Positions 6,550 through 13,688 of a stretch of 64,000 nt of DNA are shown in pieces. Positions within the stretch are counted from its first letter, which is position 1. Each line of letters opens with the position of its first letter. The stretch comes from Bryobacterales bacterium. Its GTDB lineage: Bacteria; Acidobacteriota; Terriglobia; Bryobacterales; UBA6623. Both the position numbers and the translations under genes were made by a program. The notes below the pieces were generated by a model. The model saw nothing but the letters and a program-made list of their open reading frames with translations, was not told the DNA's origin and did not search any database. The stretch lies in contig JAPOOG010000150.1 in assembly GCA_026713545.1 (NCBI GenBank), forward strand, positions 1 to 64,000. The letters are read 5' to 3'.

Positions 6550-8103
6550 TCAATACTTGTGGCGCCGCGCCTCCCAGGTAGCGACCGGGAGCGCGCCCGG
6601 ATTCAACAACCCTCCCATGCGGTCTCCCCTGAGGGCGCCTTCAAAGCGATATCCGAGAGTGACGCTCTCGAAAGGCAAGGCGCTGCTCAAGCGCACCTTG
6701 TCTCCATCCAGGGTTCCACGAACTCTTCCTTCCGCGATCGTACCGATGTGGGCGCCCGTCACGTTGTTGCCGTCGGCTTCGAGAAAGAGCTCGTGTTCGG
6801 CATTCCCGACGCCGAAATCCATACGGACGTGCCAGCGGCCCGCAATTTCGTCGACAGGCGTACGCATCACCGGCGCGGGCCTCGGCTTCGGGGCATTCCG
6901 AAAAACCGAGTGCAGCCGCTCGGCCACCATTTGGTACTCGCTCGGCTTCATGGCCACCGGCCGCAGACGGAACGACGTTCCGCTGCCGGCAGCATGAGTC
7001 GCGATGCGAGGCGTGCCGTTCAACAGATGTGCGCCGACCTCGCCGGCCGTCAGCCCGATCTTCGCCGGGTCCCATTCCACCATCAGGACCGGGAACGGGC
7101 CACCGCGCGAGGGTGCGGCGACATACGTGGAAACCCCATCCACTTTCGTGATCTGCTCGGAGATGTACTTGTACCAGCCTTCCCACTCGCGGTACTCCTG
7201 CTGCAGGTCTCTGCGTCCAAAGAACGTTTCGACGGCCGTCAGCACGCCGATGATCTCCTCCTTGCTGACCTTCATCGGCCGTCCGAAAGCGTGGTGATGG
7301 GCGGCGTTCGCGAAAGCGGCGCGAACCAACTCTTCGTTGCCCACGAGCAATCCCCCGCCCTGGGGGCCGCGGGAGATCTTGCCGCCGCTGTAGGCAACGA
7401 GATCGGCCCCCTGGGCGACATAGGGATTGGGAGAGACCAGATAATCCGCAGCCGAGTCGACAAGGACGGGGATTCCGGCCTGGTTGGCAATCGGCGCAAC
7501 TTCCTCGAGGGGCAACTCGACCTTCGGGCTGAAACGGTCCCCGAGCATGGCGATCATCGCGGTGCGGTCGTTGATCGCCGCCTTCAGTTCGCGAGCCGTC
7601 CCGACCTCCACGGTGGTCACGCCGACCATCCGCACGGCGTAGTCGTAACCGTTGCGCGAGGACTTGGGCATGATGACCTCGTTCTTCAGGCCCGTCATGT
7701 CCGGGAGCTGCTGCATGCGTTCCGGGTCGGTGCCGGCCACGATGCCCGCCGTGGCATGCGCCAGCGCGGCCGCCGCACCGGACGAGACCAAGGCGTGCTC
7801 GACCTGCAGCAACTCCGCGATGCGTTTCCCGGCGGCTTCCTGAAGCTCGTCGAGATTCACGTGGTAGTGCGAGGCGTGGTGGATCGCCTGGATCACCTCG
7901 GGCAAAGTCCGCGAACCACCATTGCTCGTCACCGTGGCCGTGCAATTGATGAAGGGCTCCACTCCGAGCCGCGTATAGACGTCTTTCGGCGGCTCTTCGT
8001 GGATCTCGGAAACCGTCGTCGCCCCGGCACTATTGAGAAGCGCCGCCGCACTCGCTGCTCCACTCGCTTGCAGCCAGCCGCGGCGTGTCGTCCGATCGCT
8101 CAT
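6550..8103 (-). CDS. Tat-exported SelA-like PLP-dependent enzyme with extra C-terminal beta domain (downstream paralogue)
   Basis: 517 residues. The N-terminus carries a twin-arginine signal (TTRRGWLQ followed by an alanine-rich stretch). Residues 40-405 are a fold-type I PLP domain of the SelA/D-glucosaminate-6-phosphate ammonia-lyase group: VLVDSAAD places the ring-binding Asp216, and YSGGKISRGPQ supplies Schiff-base Lys242. Residues 418-517 form a separate beta-rich tail (GRWHVRMDF, HELFLEADGN, GAHIGT) resembling a small barrel. It overlaps the upstream paralogue by 4 nt, so the two are co-translated. The substrate is unknown; selenocysteine synthase itself is unlikely because the protein appears to be exported. 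Confidence 0.85.
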   Translation of the reverse strand: MSDRTTRRGWLQASGAASAAALLNSAGATTVSEIHEEPPKDVYTRLGVEPFINCTATVTSNGGSRTLPEVIQAIHHASHYHVNLDELQEAAGKRIAELLQVEHALVSSGAAAALAHATAGIVAGTDPERMQQLPDMTGLKNEVIMPKSSRNGYDYAVRMVGVTTVEVGTARELKAAINDRTAMIAMLGDRFSPKVELPLEEVAPIANQAGIPVLVDSAADYLVSPNPYVAQGADLVAYSGGKISRGPQGGGLLVGNEELVRAAFANAAHHHAFGRPMKVSKEEIIGVLTAVETFFGRRDLQQEYREWEGWYKYISEQITKVDGVSTYVAAPSRGGPFPVLMVEWDPAKIGLTAGEVGAHLLNGTPRIATHAAGSGTSFRLRPVAMKPSEYQMVAERLHSVFRNAPKPRPAPVMRTPVDEIAGRWHVRMDFGVGNAEHELFLEADGNNVTGAHIGTIAEGRVRGTLDGDKVRLSSALPFESVTLGYRFEGALRGDRMGGLLNPGALPVATWEARRHKY

Positions 8104-9653
8104 GCTGATGCCTCCCTTCGACGCGCCACCCAGCGTCCTGGCGGATACTCGCCCAGATCCAAGTCCCCTTGCATTTCGCCGCCCTGGACGACTCCCGAGA
8201 AGCGATAGCGCAACCGCGAACCCTCCATCGGCAAGACGCTTTCGAGACGGACCTTGTTGCTTTCGACCGCCCCTTTCAGGTCTCCCCTGGCGCGAGCACC
8301 GATGTGCGTGCCGACGACGCCGTTCTCCGCCGCTTCGAGGAACAACTGGTGTTTCCCGCGCCCCCGCAAGAACTCGATCTCGACATCCCAGTGCCCCGAA
8401 ACATCGGTTGCCGGCTTCTCCGGAGCGCGTTTGTCGGCCCCGCTCGGAGCGGCCGCCAGAATCGACCGGACCGTCTTCCCGATGATCTTGTACTCACCGG
8501 GCTTGAGCGCCGCCGGACGAATCACAAGGAAGTTCCGGTCGCCATAGTCCCAGGTCATGATCGGCGGATCGGAATCCAGAAGCCGCCGGTGCACGTCGGA
8601 CGAGCGGAGACCGATCTTGGCGGTATCCCAGGAGATCCGCAATGTCGGGAAGGGGCCGCCACGGGTCGGTCCCTGGACTCGCGCCTCGACGCCGTCCACC
8701 TGGCGAACCTCGTTGCTGATGTGGCCGTACCAGCCTTCCCACTCCTCATACTCGCGCCGGATGTCGCGCTCTTTCACCCAGATTTCCAGCGCCGTGACGA
8801 GCCCGACAATCTCCTCCTTGCTCACTTTCATCGGCCGCCCGAAACCACCGTTCGGAGCAGCGTTGATGCCGGCCGCCCGGACGAGGTCTTCGCGGCCGAG
8901 CAGGATGCCCGAGCTTTGCGGTCCGCGCAGGATCTTGCCGCCGCTATAGACGACCAGGTCCGCCCCGTCCTTCAGATAGGGGTTGGGGATGACCGGAAAA
9001 TCAGGCGCGGCGTCGACCAGAACGGGGATGCCACGCTCTTTCGCGAGCGGCGCCAGATCCCTCAAGCCGGGGCGATCATTTCCGAAACGGTCGCCCAGCA
9101 GAGCCACCATGGCGGTGTGCGGACTGAAGGCGGCGCGGGTCTGGGCCACGGTTTCCACCTCGACCATGCGCACGCCCACCATCCGAATCGAGTGGTCGTA
9201 TTGATTCCGCGACCACTTCGGCATGATCACCTCGTTCCTCATGCCGTCGAGCATCGGCAGTTTCTGACGCCACTCCGGGTTGGCTCCCGCGACGCAGGCG
9301 GCCGTGGCGTGGGTCAATCCGGCCGCCGCGCCGGAGCAGACGATCGCCCAGGGAACCTCCAGCAGCTCGGAGATCCTCTGGCTGGCCGCTTCGATCAGCG
9401 AAGCAAGCCGCACGTGATAGTGCGAGGCATGCTCGACAGCCTCGATGACCTCGGGCAGCAGAAGAGAGCCGCCGTTGCGCGTGATCGTCGCCGTGCAGTT
9501 GATGAACGGCTTGACGCCGATCCGCGTGTAGACGTCGGGAGACGGCTCGTCCCTGGTCTCTGCCGCCACGGGCTTCGCTCCCGCCGCGCCCAGAAGGGCA
9601 GCGGCCCCGGCGCCGGACTTCAGCCAACTACGGCGTGTCGTCGGATACACCAT
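8100..9653 (-). CDS. Tat-exported SelA-like PLP-dependent enzyme with extra C-terminal beta domain (upstream paralogue)
   Basis: 517 residues, the same length and architecture as the next gene. The Tat motif is TTRRSWLK; cleavage is likely near PVAAET. Asp214 (VLVDAAPD) and Lys240 (YSGGKILRGPQ) are the PLP residues. The C-terminal module begins at about residue 418 (GHWDVEIEFL) and repeats the tail of the paralogue. ATG at 9653 is the first gene of a two-gene operon. The pair arose by tandem duplication but is well diverged, so the two probably act on different substrates or form a hetero-oligomer. Family assignment is firm at the SelA-like level only. Confidence 0.85.
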   Translation of the reverse strand: MVYPTTRRSWLKSGAGAAALLGAAGAKPVAAETRDEPSPDVYTRIGVKPFINCTATITRNGGSLLLPEVIEAVEHASHYHVRLASLIEAASQRISELLEVPWAIVCSGAAAGLTHATAACVAGANPEWRQKLPMLDGMRNEVIMPKWSRNQYDHSIRMVGVRMVEVETVAQTRAAFSPHTAMVALLGDRFGNDRPGLRDLAPLAKERGIPVLVDAAPDFPVIPNPYLKDGADLVVYSGGKILRGPQSSGILLGREDLVRAAGINAAPNGGFGRPMKVSKEEIVGLVTALEIWVKERDIRREYEEWEGWYGHISNEVRQVDGVEARVQGPTRGGPFPTLRISWDTAKIGLRSSDVHRRLLDSDPPIMTWDYGDRNFLVIRPAALKPGEYKIIGKTVRSILAAAPSGADKRAPEKPATDVSGHWDVEIEFLRGRGKHQLFLEAAENGVVGTHIGARARGDLKGAVESNKVRLESVLPMEGSRLRYRFSGVVQGGEMQGDLDLGEYPPGRWVARRREASA

Positions 9654-9749: not shown

Positions 9750-10110
9750 CGTTCCCCTTTCTCAGCATGGTTTCATTTGGCGTTCGCCGCGGCTAACGGC
9801 GCTCGTCCCGAGGCCGGCCGGGAACGGCTTACGGGGCAAGGACACTGCCGCAGGGCAATATTTTTTTCCGAACAATGGCGAACAATAGTGAACAATAGTG
9901 AACAATGGTGAACAGGAAAACAGTGACTGGGCGACGATCCGGACGGCGGTTTCCGGTGGCGCCACCCTTGCGCACACACGGCGAAAAAAAGCCGTGTTTC
10001 GTGAAAACCAGGGGAGGGGCCTGGTTCGCTCCAGAAGAAATTTCTGACGGCCAGTGAACCGTAAAGGCCGTGTTTCGTGTTTCGTGTCTCGTGTTTCTTG
10101 ACCCGAAGGC
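9750..10110 (+). repeat. Family B dispersed repeat, copy B1 (3' truncated)
   Basis: It shares with B2 and B3 the blocks GCTAACGGCGCTCGTC, GGGCAATATTTTTTT, CAGTGACTGGG and CACCCTTGCGCA. At 9870-9909 it carries four 10-bp units all of the form GAACAATRGY, and at 10070-10101 an array of GTG-N4 heptamers (GTGTTTC, GTGTCTC). It lacks the distal third (block AGCCTCTACAGCGAG) present in B2 and B3, and is fused to a family A half-element. Confidence 0.75.
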
Positions 10111-10129
10111 CAGAGGAGGCAATATGACC

Positions 10130-10217
10130 GCTGCGCCTACGCACGCCAAGCGGCTCGCGCCTCGGCTTGGCCGCCCTCTCACGCACTTCACCTCGCCTCG
10201 TGGTAAGACATGCAGGC
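10130..10217 (-). repeat. Family A half-element, copy A2
   Basis: The reverse complement of the left half of family A: GCCAAGCGGCTCGCGCCTCG, CCCTCTCACGCACTTCACC and the terminal block GTGGTAAGACATGCAGG. The other half is missing. It is joined directly to a family C fragment, showing that the elements recombine or insert into one another. Confidence 0.75.
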
Positions 10218-10534
10218 GGCGTTACGCGCCCCTGGGCCGATTGCGTACTGTCCAAGCCGGCGCCTCGCTCTGCGCGTTTTTCCTTCGAAGCCGAGCGGAA
10301 GCGGCGCGTAACCCTTTGGACGACGGACATTTTTTTGTTCCAACGGCGGTTCTGAGCTTGCCGGCGAGCGTGACCACGCAGACGACCGCCTAAGCTCATC
10401 GGCTTTGTCGTTCGCTTTTCCTTCGCGAGGAGGAGATCACCCGGATCGCCATCCTCCTCACTCCGCGCCGAGGATGAGCAGGAGCCTGCCGCGCTTTTTC
10501 CTTCGTACCAAGGGACCTTTACCACGGGCTGCTA
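10211..10534 (-). repeat. Family C element fragment, copy C2
   Basis: It matches the reverse complement of the complete copy at 39845-40110 over GGCGGCGTTACGCGCCCC, GCGCGTAACCCTTTGG, GACGGACATTT, GTCGGCTTTGTCGTTCG-like and GAGATCACCCGGATCGCC. It ends in the terminal repeat CCACGGGCTGCTA near 10534. The opposite terminus has been replaced by the A2 half-element. Confidence 0.75.
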
Positions 10535-10976
10535 ACGGCGCTTGTCCTGAGGCCGACCGAGAACAGCGGACGATGCGTTGAAAATGGCTCATGGGCAATA
10601 TTTTTTTACCGGGAAATAATGAGCAATGCCGGGAAATCGTGGGAAATTCCTTGCAGGCGAGCAGTGACTTATCGGCGTGTGCGGCGGTCCAGATGGCGCT
10701 TCTCAGTGTTGCGACCCTTGCGCACTCACGGCGAAAAAAGCCGTGTTTCGTGACTCGTGTCTCGTGTTTCGTGAAAACCAGGGGAAGGGGCCTGGTTCGC
10801 TCCAGAAGAAATATCTGACGACCGCTGAACCGTAAAGGCCGTGATTCGTGAAAACCTCATGTGGGCGCGGCAGCCTCTACAGCGAGTGCCGCGCCGACGG
10901 CACGTCGATCGTTGGCCTCGCTGTCCTCATGCTAAGCAGGCCGGAGCGGGAAAAAAAGACTGAAGGACTCCAGTAC
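10531..10976 (+). repeat. Family B dispersed repeat, copy B2
   Basis: The longest plus-strand copy. Its 10-bp array (10611-10650) has units GGGAAATAAT, GAGCAATGCC, GGGAAATCGT and GGGAAATTCC, different from B1. Two GTG-N4 heptamer tracts lie at about 10741-10775 and 10839-10855. The distal part contains AGCCTCTACAGCGAGTGCCG and ends in an A-run plus palindrome, which on the minus strand is a terminator. Confidence 0.75.
10950..10976 (-). terminator. Intrinsic terminator downstream of the ORF6N gene, supplied by repeat B2
   Basis: On the minus strand an ACTGGAG/CTTCAGT stem with one mismatch is followed by C and seven T. It lies about 115 nt past the end of the leftward ORF6N gene and is part of a dispersed repeat. 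Confidence 0.6.
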
Positions 10977-11092: not shown

Positions 11093-11620
11093 CTAGCGCT
11101 CAGCATCCACATCTTTCGCACGAAAGCCGATCCGGGGTTTTGGGGGAAGTTCAGGCGGCTCCAACAGATCCTTGATGTGTTCGAAGAGAAGGTTGATCTT
11201 CTGATCGTGCTCGGCCACTTTGCAGGCCAGCTCTTCGTTGGTGTCCAGCGCCCTGCGAAGGTGCACGAAGGCGCGCATGATGTCAATGTTCACCTCAACC
11301 GCCCGTTTGCTGCGCAGGACGCCGGAAAGCATAGCAACACCTTCCTGGGTGAAGGCTCGCGGCGGGTAGCGGCGACCTCCCCAACTTGAGATCACAATTT
11401 GTGACCTCAAGTACTCGAACTCCTCTTTCGAGAGTTGGAACATGAAATCCTCGGGAAATCGCCCGCGGTTGCGAGTCACGGCTTGGTTGAGCGCTCTCGT
11501 GGTCACACCATAGAGTTTGGCCAGATCGAAATCGAGCATAACCTTCTGCCCGCGCAGGAGATAAATTTGCGCGGTGATCCGTTCAATGGGTATCAGGCTC
11601 TGAGGCTTCGCCTTGGCCAT
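11093..11620 (-). CDS. ORF6N domain protein (KilA-N/ORF6N DNA-binding type)
   Basis: 175 residues from ATG 11620 (MAKAKPQSLIPIERI). The ORF6N domain spans about residues 10-95: the conserved IYLLRGQKVMLDFDLAKLYG, then RALNQAVTRNRGRFPEDFMF, and WGGRRYPPRAFTQEGVAML. The C-terminal part is helical (RRALDTNEELACKVAEHDQK) and ends in a proline-rich tail. ORF6N domains occur in phage antirepressors and as lone chromosomal genes; DNA binding is inferred from the family. No phage genes surround it. A longer start at 11698 is possible but has no family support. Confidence 0.85.
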   Translation of the reverse strand: MAKAKPQSLIPIERITAQIYLLRGQKVMLDFDLAKLYGVTTRALNQAVTRNRGRFPEDFMFQLSKEEFEYLRSQIVISSWGGRRYPPRAFTQEGVAMLSGVLRSKRAVEVNIDIMRAFVHLRRALDTNEELACKVAEHDQKINLLFEHIKDLLEPPELPPKPRIGFRAKDVDAER

Positions 11621-12476: not shown

Positions 12477-13688
12477 GTGAGAACTCCACTGCATCTCGCA
12501 TTGCTCGCCGCGGCCGCGATTTCGGCGGCTCCGGGACAACCGCTTTCCGAACAGGCCAACCGCCTGCACGAAGACGCGTTCATCTTCGACGCCCACGTTC
12601 ACTTCATCAACCGTCAGCTCTATCTCGGCGGGAACATCGCTGAGCGTCTTCCGGGGCCGGTCAGCGGGATCGGCGTCGACCTGCCGACGACTCGAGAAGG
12701 CGGACTCGACGCGCTGTTCCTGAACCTCTACGTCGAGCCGGAATACACGAAGCGCCATCTCGAGGTGAAGCAAACCCTGCGGCTGCTCGAACTCGCGCAT
12801 CAGCAGATCCGCAACAACCATGCCGACATCGAGGTGGCATTGACCGCGGACGATGTCGAGAGAATTCATCGCGCCGGCAAGATCGCCGCCGTGCTGGACC
12901 TGGAGGGCGCCTTCGATTTCGACGGCGATCCGGACGTCCTTCGCAGCCTCCACAGGCTTGGCCTGCGCTCGGTCCAGTTCGCCGACAACGCTCAGGCCAA
13001 CGGCTATGCCGACTCATCCTGCTGCGCGCCCAAATGGAACGGAATCAATCAGCGCGGACGCGACTTGCTGCGCGAGATGAACCGCCTCGGGATGGTCGTC
13101 AATCTCGCGCACGCCTCGCAGGACGCCTGGATGCAGATCGTCGAGCTCAGCGAGCATCCGGTCGTCGCGACCCACCAGGGAATGCGGGCCTTCAACCCCC
13201 GCCATTCGGGCAATGCCAGCGACGAGATGCTCATGGCCCTGGCCGCCAAGGGCGGGATCCTGGCCGTGCACTTCAGTCCGAATACCTGGAGCCCTCTTTT
13301 TTTCGACCACTACCGCAACCGGCCGGGATCACCGGACCCCCTGCCCCCGCTTTCCGTCGACGCCGTGTACGAGGAGATCGTCAACCGCTACCGGCTCAGC
13401 TATCAGAAGCCCGGGGCAGTCCCCCCGCAAGAAATTGTCGAGCCGATTTCCCGTTTCGTCGAGGTGATCGACTACGCGGTGCGGTTGATCGGCGAGGACC
13501 ACGTCTCACTCGGTTCGGATTTCGGCGGCGGGCTCAATTCGAGGGCGAGCATGACCAGCATCGCCGAATACGGACGGGTAACGCAGGCGCTCGTTGACAA
13601 AGGCTATTCGGAAGAGAGAATCCGCAAAATCCTGGGCGGCAACCTCCTGCGCGTGTTCCGGCAGATTACGGAGGGGGCCAGCCGCTGA
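12477..13688 (+). CDS. Secreted membrane dipeptidase, peptidase M19 (renal dipeptidase family)
   Basis: 403 residues from a GTG start preceded by GGAGGA at good spacing. Residues 1-20 are a signal peptide. The amidohydrolase-type barrel has metal ligands His40 and His42 (DAHVHF), bridging Glu142 (DLEGAF), His211 (VNLAHAS) and His232 (ATHQGMRAF); LGSDFGG near the C-terminus is also conserved. M19 enzymes are dinuclear-zinc dipeptidases that cleave Xaa-Xaa dipeptides, often including D-residues or dehydropeptides. Export suggests peptide scavenging outside the cytoplasm. It has its own candidate promoter and no evident operon partner. Confidence 0.88.
   Translation: MRTPLHLALLAAAAISAAPGQPLSEQANRLHEDAFIFDAHVHFINRQLYLGGNIAERLPGPVSGIGVDLPTTREGGLDALFLNLYVEPEYTKRHLEVKQTLRLLELAHQQIRNNHADIEVALTADDVERIHRAGKIAAVLDLEGAFDFDGDPDVLRSLHRLGLRSVQFADNAQANGYADSSCCAPKWNGINQRGRDLLREMNRLGMVVNLAHASQDAWMQIVELSEHPVVATHQGMRAFNPRHSGNASDEMLMALAAKGGILAVHFSPNTWSPLFFDHYRNRPGSPDPLPPLSVDAVYEEIVNRYRLSYQKPGAVPPQEIVEPISRFVEVIDYAVRLIGEDHVSLGSDFGGGLNSRASMTSIAEYGRVTQALVDKGYSEERIRKILGGNLLRVFRQITEGASR

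Follow-up and report, generated by a model that had tools for sequence, protein, structure and literature searches.

What would two adjacent genes for pyridoxal 5'-phosphate (PLP) enzymes, both with export-type leaders, be doing in an uncultured acidobacterium? The genes lie in the first 64,000 nucleotides of contig JAPOOG010000150.1 of a Bryobacterales bacterium (the source genome, a 5.6-Mb assembly, GCA_026713545.1), and this whole stretch is called the window below (G000:C18:1-64000, where G, C and L numbers stand for genomes, contigs and loci). Gene A (8100..9653, minus strand) is the upstream partner and encodes a 517-residue fold-type I PLP enzyme, DgaE/SelA-like, with a predicted leader of the twin-arginine translocation (Tat) type and a C-terminal barrel, and gene B (6550..8103, minus strand) is the downstream partner and encodes a paralogue of the same length. 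The reading proposed here, which seems to stand just on the probable side of even, is that both products are exported PLP ammonia-lyases whose enamine or imine products are hydrolysed by exported RidA. Part of its evidence comes from gene clustering around B orthologues in other genera, where a Rid-family gene recurs, usually with its own twin-arginine (RR) leader.

The gene pair and its leader-bearing family

The first-pass annotation had described two 517-residue paralogues as a coupled gene pair, and both open reading frames (ORFs) were confirmed at the positions given, on the minus strand and sharing ATGA. The stop codon of A overlaps the start codon of B at 8100..8103, from which translational coupling may be expected, and a putative ribosome-binding site, AGGGAGG (8111..8117, minus strand), lies within the 3' end of A ahead of the B ATG. 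The GC content per codon position in the two genes (0.67/0.49/0.81 and 0.66/0.48/0.80), together with the ratios of nonsynonymous to synonymous substitution (dN/dS) against two relatives (0.155 for A and 0.099 for B versus L010; 0.238 and 0.142 versus L009), marks A and B as real coding frames, and the long plus-strand ORFs that overlie them have the codon-position GC pattern of shadow frames. Both genes are under purifying selection, and their products are 53% identical in a pairwise alignment that includes the C-terminal domain.

The leaders noticed earlier, TTRRGWLQ in B and TTRRSWLK in A, are indeed present, with the arginine pair at residues 7-8 of both proteins followed by an Ala-rich uncharged stretch with AxA sites, so that by our own rule A and B have the N-terminal features of Tat substrates. 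The leaders are predicted to span about residues 1-31 of A (9561..9653, minus strand) and 1-28 of B (8020..8103, minus strand), the cleavage points being putative, and the source genome has a gene for TatC. The same feature was then counted in 105 distinct family ORFs, a non-exhaustive set in which the loci from other Acidobacteriota genomes were picked from hit lists. A lenient rule of our own rather than a trained predictor, consisting of RR plus an uncharged stretch with no start codon required, was passed by 98 of the 105, and four more leaders of SRR/TRR type were accepted by eye (L079, L085, L088, and L090), leaving three ORFs without a leader (L028, L111, and L112). When a similar, not identical, rule was applied to 299 further genes predicted in these loci, it was passed by 35, several of which are plausible Tat or RidA proteins. 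The frequency in the family thus exceeds the background, and the family leaders probably direct export through Tat.

The phylogenetic grouping agrees with the leader count. In a first tree of the 105 ORFs with DgaE and Cap15 the 102 leader-bearing rows fell on one side of a branch with a Shimodaira-Hasegawa-like approximate likelihood ratio test (SH-aLRT) support of 94, the other five rows being leaderless, and the 62 long forms, which bear the C-terminal domain, made one group with support of 100. In a second tree with six added rows (two from Granulicella, three rhizobial, and one haloarchaeal) 104 leader-bearing and nine leaderless rows were separated with one change and a support of 79. 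Homologues without leaders, which had been named beforehand as the finding that would speak against export, do exist, but all those seen fall beyond the exported group, namely DgaE, Cap15, L028, L111, L112, three rhizobial proteins, and one haloarchaeal protein.

It is therefore considered most unlikely that the leaders arose by chance and that the proteins are cytosolic. This explanation is consistent with the leaderless state of DgaE, Cap15, and the rhizobial and haloarchaeal relatives, and with leader evidence that comes from a sequence rule; against it stand the leader in 102 of the 105 ORFs (98 by rule and four by eye), its restriction to a single side of the first tree, the lipobox-like Cys that follows the leader in five short paralogues of the source genome, and the RR leaders on the linked Rid and PIG-L proteins described below.

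The family is large in this genus. At E <= 1e-30 it has 24 members in the source genome and 22 and 21 in two genomes of the same genus; at least one member was found in 44 of 61 related genomes searched and in 16 of 198 genomes sampled over the phylum, source genome included, with up to seven candidates scored per genome and counts per genome that are lower bounds. A scan of genome contigs with B returned two loci, which are too few to judge distribution. The 24 paralogues, 12 long and 12 short, are 34-53% identical to B; with start codons chosen by hand 23 of them have an RR leader, one of these (L016, C102) being weak, while the PLP lysine is kept in 23 and Asp216 in all 24. The leaderless paralogue, L028, is DgaE-like with 245 bits to TIGR01437.

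As for the pair itself, the nearest named records are Acidobacteriota metagenome-assembled genomes, "Bryobacterales bacterium RHO3_bin_12" (L009, 95% identity to B) and "Acidobacteria bacterium casp150-mb.136" (L010, 84%), and both, like the source genome, carry A and B side by side. The survey for the same pair that the first-pass annotation had proposed found it adjacent only in these three same-genus genomes (G000; G001, which is L009; and G002, which is L010/L051). The pair is thus not the main unit: the exported family, the barrel, and the Rid neighbours are spread over the phylum, unlike the tandem arrangement.

Linkage to Rid-family genes

Linkage was counted in 19 genomes selected because they contain the family. 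Of their roughly 202 Rid domain matches 124 were listed, and 24 of these are no more than 3 kb from a family gene, against 1.13 expected. After multi-domain matches were merged these correspond to 18 genes in 12 genomes, eight of which had given no prior sign of linkage. The RR rule was passed by 15 of the 18 linked Rid ORFs versus seven of the 28 best-scoring Rid ORFs, and among these seven only L153, which itself adjoins a family member, is convincing by eye. Of the linked passes the multi-domain L177 is unconvincing and the multi-domain L170 and L172 look Sec-like, while the linked Rid protein of L045 was missed by the rule, yet its leader is visible. The four proteins scanned (L179, L040, L172, and L163, the last being an unlinked copy of the window genome) scored 49.9 to 193.5 bits against a gathering score of 27.3 for the Rid family PF01042. 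Of 20 single-domain Rid proteins that were aligned, 19 conserve the arginine that we take to be the catalytic residue of the active site; the exception is L015.

The linked genes occur in several kinds of row. In G094 the order is short PLP gene, RidA, and long PLP gene, with an RR leader on each product; in G005 PLP and RidA genes alternate twice; and in G014, G015, and G017 a long PLP gene and RidA are followed by a PIG-L gene (assigned with 44.3 bits), an RR leader being seen on the PIG-L proteins of L044 and L045. Multi-domain Rid proteins adjoin the PLP gene in G175, G117, and G018. In the cultured Granulicella tundricola MP5ACTX9 the plasmid pACIX902 has a row of RraA, short PLP enzyme, RidA, long PLP enzyme, and amidohydrolase, in which the middle three proteins have RR leaders and the outer two hydrophobic N-termini.

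The source genome itself has 20 Rid domain matches. Among them are single-domain proteins with RR-type leaders at C155, C11, C13, and C115, none of which adjoins a PLP gene. At C132 two short PLP genes adjoin two COG3964-type amidohydrolase genes and an M20 peptidase gene, and other neighbours of the family copies are varied (MR_MLE, hydantoinase A/B, RraA, M20, and DUF1501). A separate observation is a pair of adjacent proteins at G000:C102 79757-82066 (L166 4725-7208), each with three Rid domains and a signal-like N-terminus, one with a lipobox-like Cys.

This linkage bears on the possibility that the family consists of exported PLP racemases, aldolases, or transaminases, or that each copy has a separate reaction. 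Fold-type I enzymes are catalytically diverse, the copies are only 34-53% identical to B, and their neighbours vary, all of which fits such a reading; the Rid linkage in 12 of 19 genomes, however, suggests release of an enamine or imine, and this explanation is judged rather improbable.

Reaction type and its alternatives

By sequence A and B belong to the fold-type I superfamily. The Pfam Aminotran_5 model (PF00266; gathering score 21.5 bits) is exceeded by B with 34.9 and by A with 26.2 bits, and the PLP lysine claimed earlier is kept in both loops of the SGGK-x3-GPQ type, the predicted Schiff-base residue being K240 in A (codon 8934..8936, minus strand) and K242 in B (codon 7378..7380, minus strand; both computed from residue numbers). 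Among NCBIfam models the DgaE subfamily TIGR01437 scores highest, with 169.1 bits for B and 145.2 for A, far below the cut-off of 385.3, and the DgaE equivalog NF047797 gives 157.3 and 135.7 bits, below 600. The earlier term "SelA-like" is right for the fold, but close kinship with SelA (L-seryl-tRNA(Sec) selenium transferase) does not hold: TIGR00474 gives 30.5 bits for B and 27.8 for A against a cut-off of 267.9, and DgaE and Cap15 are nearer. A role in selenocysteine synthesis was thus rejected, the true SelA of this genome lying elsewhere (G000:C91, 549.4 bits).

Among solved structures the relatives of B by sequence are Cap15 (8t7j, E 3.9e-40) and then D-glucosaminate-6-phosphate ammonia-lyase, DgaE (7lc0, E 1.4e-32). 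DgaE aligns over about 360 residues with 27% identity in the Foldseek alignment and shares the PLP lysine, but it has no leader and no barrel, and the loop after its lysine reads APT. Cap15, the O2- and PLP-dependent monooxygenase-decarboxylase of capuramycin biosynthesis, is the best match with 30-31% identity in the Foldseek alignment; its aligned chain also lacks leader and barrel, has the APT loop, serves biosynthetic O2 chemistry, and groups with DgaE on the tree. The loop of A and B reads GPQ, presumably as in SelA, and since GPQ is also found in the leaderless L112 and in the Halorussus and rhizobial proteins it marks a wider group than the exported proteins.

PLP chemistry outside the cytoplasm had been called unusual, which is correct, but it is not unprecedented: the Pseudomonas enzymes PvdN and PtaA pass through Tat in the holo form, with their PLP cofactor on board (PMC6206403). 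Their task is siderophore tailoring and the portion of that paper at hand mentions no Rid partner; neither name occurs among the 55 PDB sequences matched.

If the ammonia-lyase reading holds, A and B would be folded and loaded with PLP in the cytoplasm before they cross the membrane via Tat, as their leaders and the example of PvdN and PtaA suggest. Outside, the alpha-proton would be taken from a small, probably beta-hydroxy, alpha-amino acid of amino-sugar acid or D-amino acid type, and the beta group would be eliminated, as DgaE is annotated to do. Exported Rid-family proteins could hydrolyse the released enamine or imine to a 2-oxo acid and ammonia. A de-N-acylase with an export-type N-terminus (COG3964-type amidohydrolase or PIG-L), found in the same row in several relatives, could supply the free amine, and an RraA-like protein, seen in one operon, could convert the product further. 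Since A and B overlap, they may be co-translated, to give either a hetero-oligomer or two specificities.

A working parallel is the ong cluster of Pseudoalteromonas, in which a deacetylase (OngB), a PLP deaminase (OngC), and a RidA (OngD) stand together and are all required for use of GlcNAc1A (PMC9537276). It prompted oxidised-chitin aldonate as the specific substrate, a candidate that was set aside after a search of the source genome for AA10 lytic polysaccharide monooxygenases returned none; it remains one possible amino-sugar acid.

A number of results weigh against the ammonia-lyase reading. Concerning the linkage, the sample was selected for the family and only part of the Rid matches was listed; four of the 12 linked genomes (G005, G041, G043, and G056) had already been seen to show linkage; of the 115 family genes that these 19 genomes contain, only 18 have one of the listed Rid matches within 3 kb; and the 18 linked genes include one canonical RidA without a leader (G041:C28:98249). 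In the source genome C39 is the single family locus out of 24 with a Rid match less than 5 kb away, and the arginine is missing from that Rid protein; inspection of the genes adjoining the window pair found no Rid, deacetylase, or aldolase gene. Concerning the enzyme, the closest solved relative by sequence, Cap15, is an O2-dependent monooxygenase-decarboxylase; the GPQ loop of A and B in place of the APT of DgaE, Cap15, and L028 means that the reaction may differ from that of DgaE; the full-length model is poor, with a predicted local distance difference test score (pLDDT) of 63.5 and a predicted template-modelling score (pTM) of 0.48; and the long paralogue at G000:C61 (L011 5683-7269) has Met for the PLP lysine (SGGM), the Lys being kept in its same-genus orthologue L050, so that a sequencing error or a recent loss of activity may be considered. 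The absence of AA10 enzymes counts on the same side, as do features of the ong system, whose OngC belongs to fold-type III and whose OngD has, according to its report, no known role. OngB and OngC are predicted to be cytoplasmic (PMC9537276).

The main rival, which is judged unlikely, is that A and B are exported O2-dependent enzymes similar to Cap15 and PvdN, in which a PLP carbanion and O2 would oxidise an amino acid, either decarboxylated to the amide or deaminated, and RidA would clear leaked imine or enamine. Cap15 is the top PDB match by sequence and also the best Foldseek match of the full-length model, a ranking that, with a model of such low confidence, serves only as support; it is described as an O2/PLP enzyme, a monooxygenase-decarboxylase (PMC7497351 and PMC6384614), and PvdN, which is Tat-exported, is proposed to oxygenate. 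Yet the APT loop is common to Cap15 and DgaE, and the tree places the two together and apart from the leader-bearing rows, so Cap15 is no closer guide than DgaE, and the amidohydrolase, PIG-L, and RraA neighbours look catabolic. For the window pair itself gene context does not separate lyase from O2 chemistry because it has no diagnostic neighbour.

Exported PLP enzymes were known already, and the new element is the Rid linkage of this family in other genera. RidA is known as a cytoplasmic safeguard. The reactive enamines of PLP lyases damage PLP enzymes, and RidA acts on the 2-aminoacrylate that PLP enzymes make (PMC5636819 and PMC12172467). If both partners were moved outside the membrane, amines could be removed from environmental amino compounds before uptake and Rid would gain an extracytoplasmic role, within a many-copy exported PLP-lyase system of 21-24 members per genome in this uncultured genus. 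A full degradation line for amino compounds outside the cytoplasm of Acidobacteriota, made of exported de-N-acylase, Tat-exported and often barrel-bearing PLP lyase, Tat-exported RidA, and maybe an exported aldolase-like protein, is a more tentative proposal, for which the probability falls clearly short of even. Searches of the open-licence PMC literature found no precedent for a DgaE/SelA-like family that is exported, bears an avidin-like barrel, and has exported Rid proteins as partners, nor did they list any paper that treats exported RidA or Tat-exported enzymes of the SelA/DgaE type in Acidobacteriota; in the Solibacter genome paper (PMC3174227) none of six terms sought occurs. Were lyase and RidA indeed moved outside together, the many acidobacterial genes annotated as "aminotransferase class V-fold" or "PLP-dependent transferase" would gain a testable function, and the compact pACIX902 operon of the cultured and named Granulicella tundricola MP5ACTX9 makes the question directly testable.

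The C-terminal barrel and other features of the locus

The shared C-terminal beta domain of about 100 residues, noticed previously, was recovered in the A/B alignment (residues 413-517 of A, 8103..8417; residues 415-517 of B, 6553..6861; both minus strand). Modelled alone, the domain of B has eight strands with a mean pLDDT of 91, and Foldseek returned designed beta-barrels and fatty-acid-binding proteins at E > 0.001. With VIA-align the top Z score was 14.9, to a barrel in the alpha subunit of quinohemoprotein amine dehydrogenase (1jmx_A), and avidins scored about 12-14. The domain thus models as an avidin-like eight-strand meander barrel, although identity in the rows listed is 9-20%. No sequence relative was found in the PDB at E <= 10, Pfam reported no model for the domain, and a barrel query on the source genome gave, beyond the 12 long paralogues, weak matches only (E >= 0.16). 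The shared fold shows no function; the barrel is an extra module of the long forms, and our guess is that it probably binds a substrate or a partner.

A mainly binding or sensing role for the long forms, whose catalysis would then be weak or lost, would suit the avidin-like model and the Met-bearing copy, but the lysine in 23 and Asp216 in 24 of the 24 paralogues, the purifying selection on A and B, and the lysine in the orthologue of the Met copy make this very unlikely. A single gain of the barrel holds for the 105 acidobacterial ORFs. It does not extend securely to other phyla, since the second tree, whose backbone has weak support, places three barrel-bearing rhizobial proteins apart from the long group.

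Leaderless barrel-bearing members were also seen on plasmids of Rhizobium indigoferae (L178 6938-8542) and Sinorhizobium meliloti M162 (L180 5938-7542), in rows with aepX (phosphoenolpyruvate mutase), aminotransferase, phosphocholine cytidylyltransferase-family, and CDP-alcohol phosphatidyltransferase genes, which suggests phosphonolipid synthesis. On a plasmid of the haloarchaeon Halorussus limi (L182 1979-8705) a short member without leader has in its vicinity genes annotated as PIG-L deacetylase, mandelate racemase family, and Rid family, a set of parts similar to that of the acidobacterial rows.

Within the window the pair is flanked by fumC and an ORF6N gene (11093-11620, minus strand, 118.6 bits) and is otherwise alone. 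A membrane dipeptidase gene (Peptidase_M19, 244 bits; 12477-13688, plus strand) lies 2.8 kb upstream on the opposite strand, and such a gene also adjoins the pair in L009. The intergenic stretch upstream of A (9860-10830) contains the short near-repeated motifs gaacaatagt and gtgtttcgtg.

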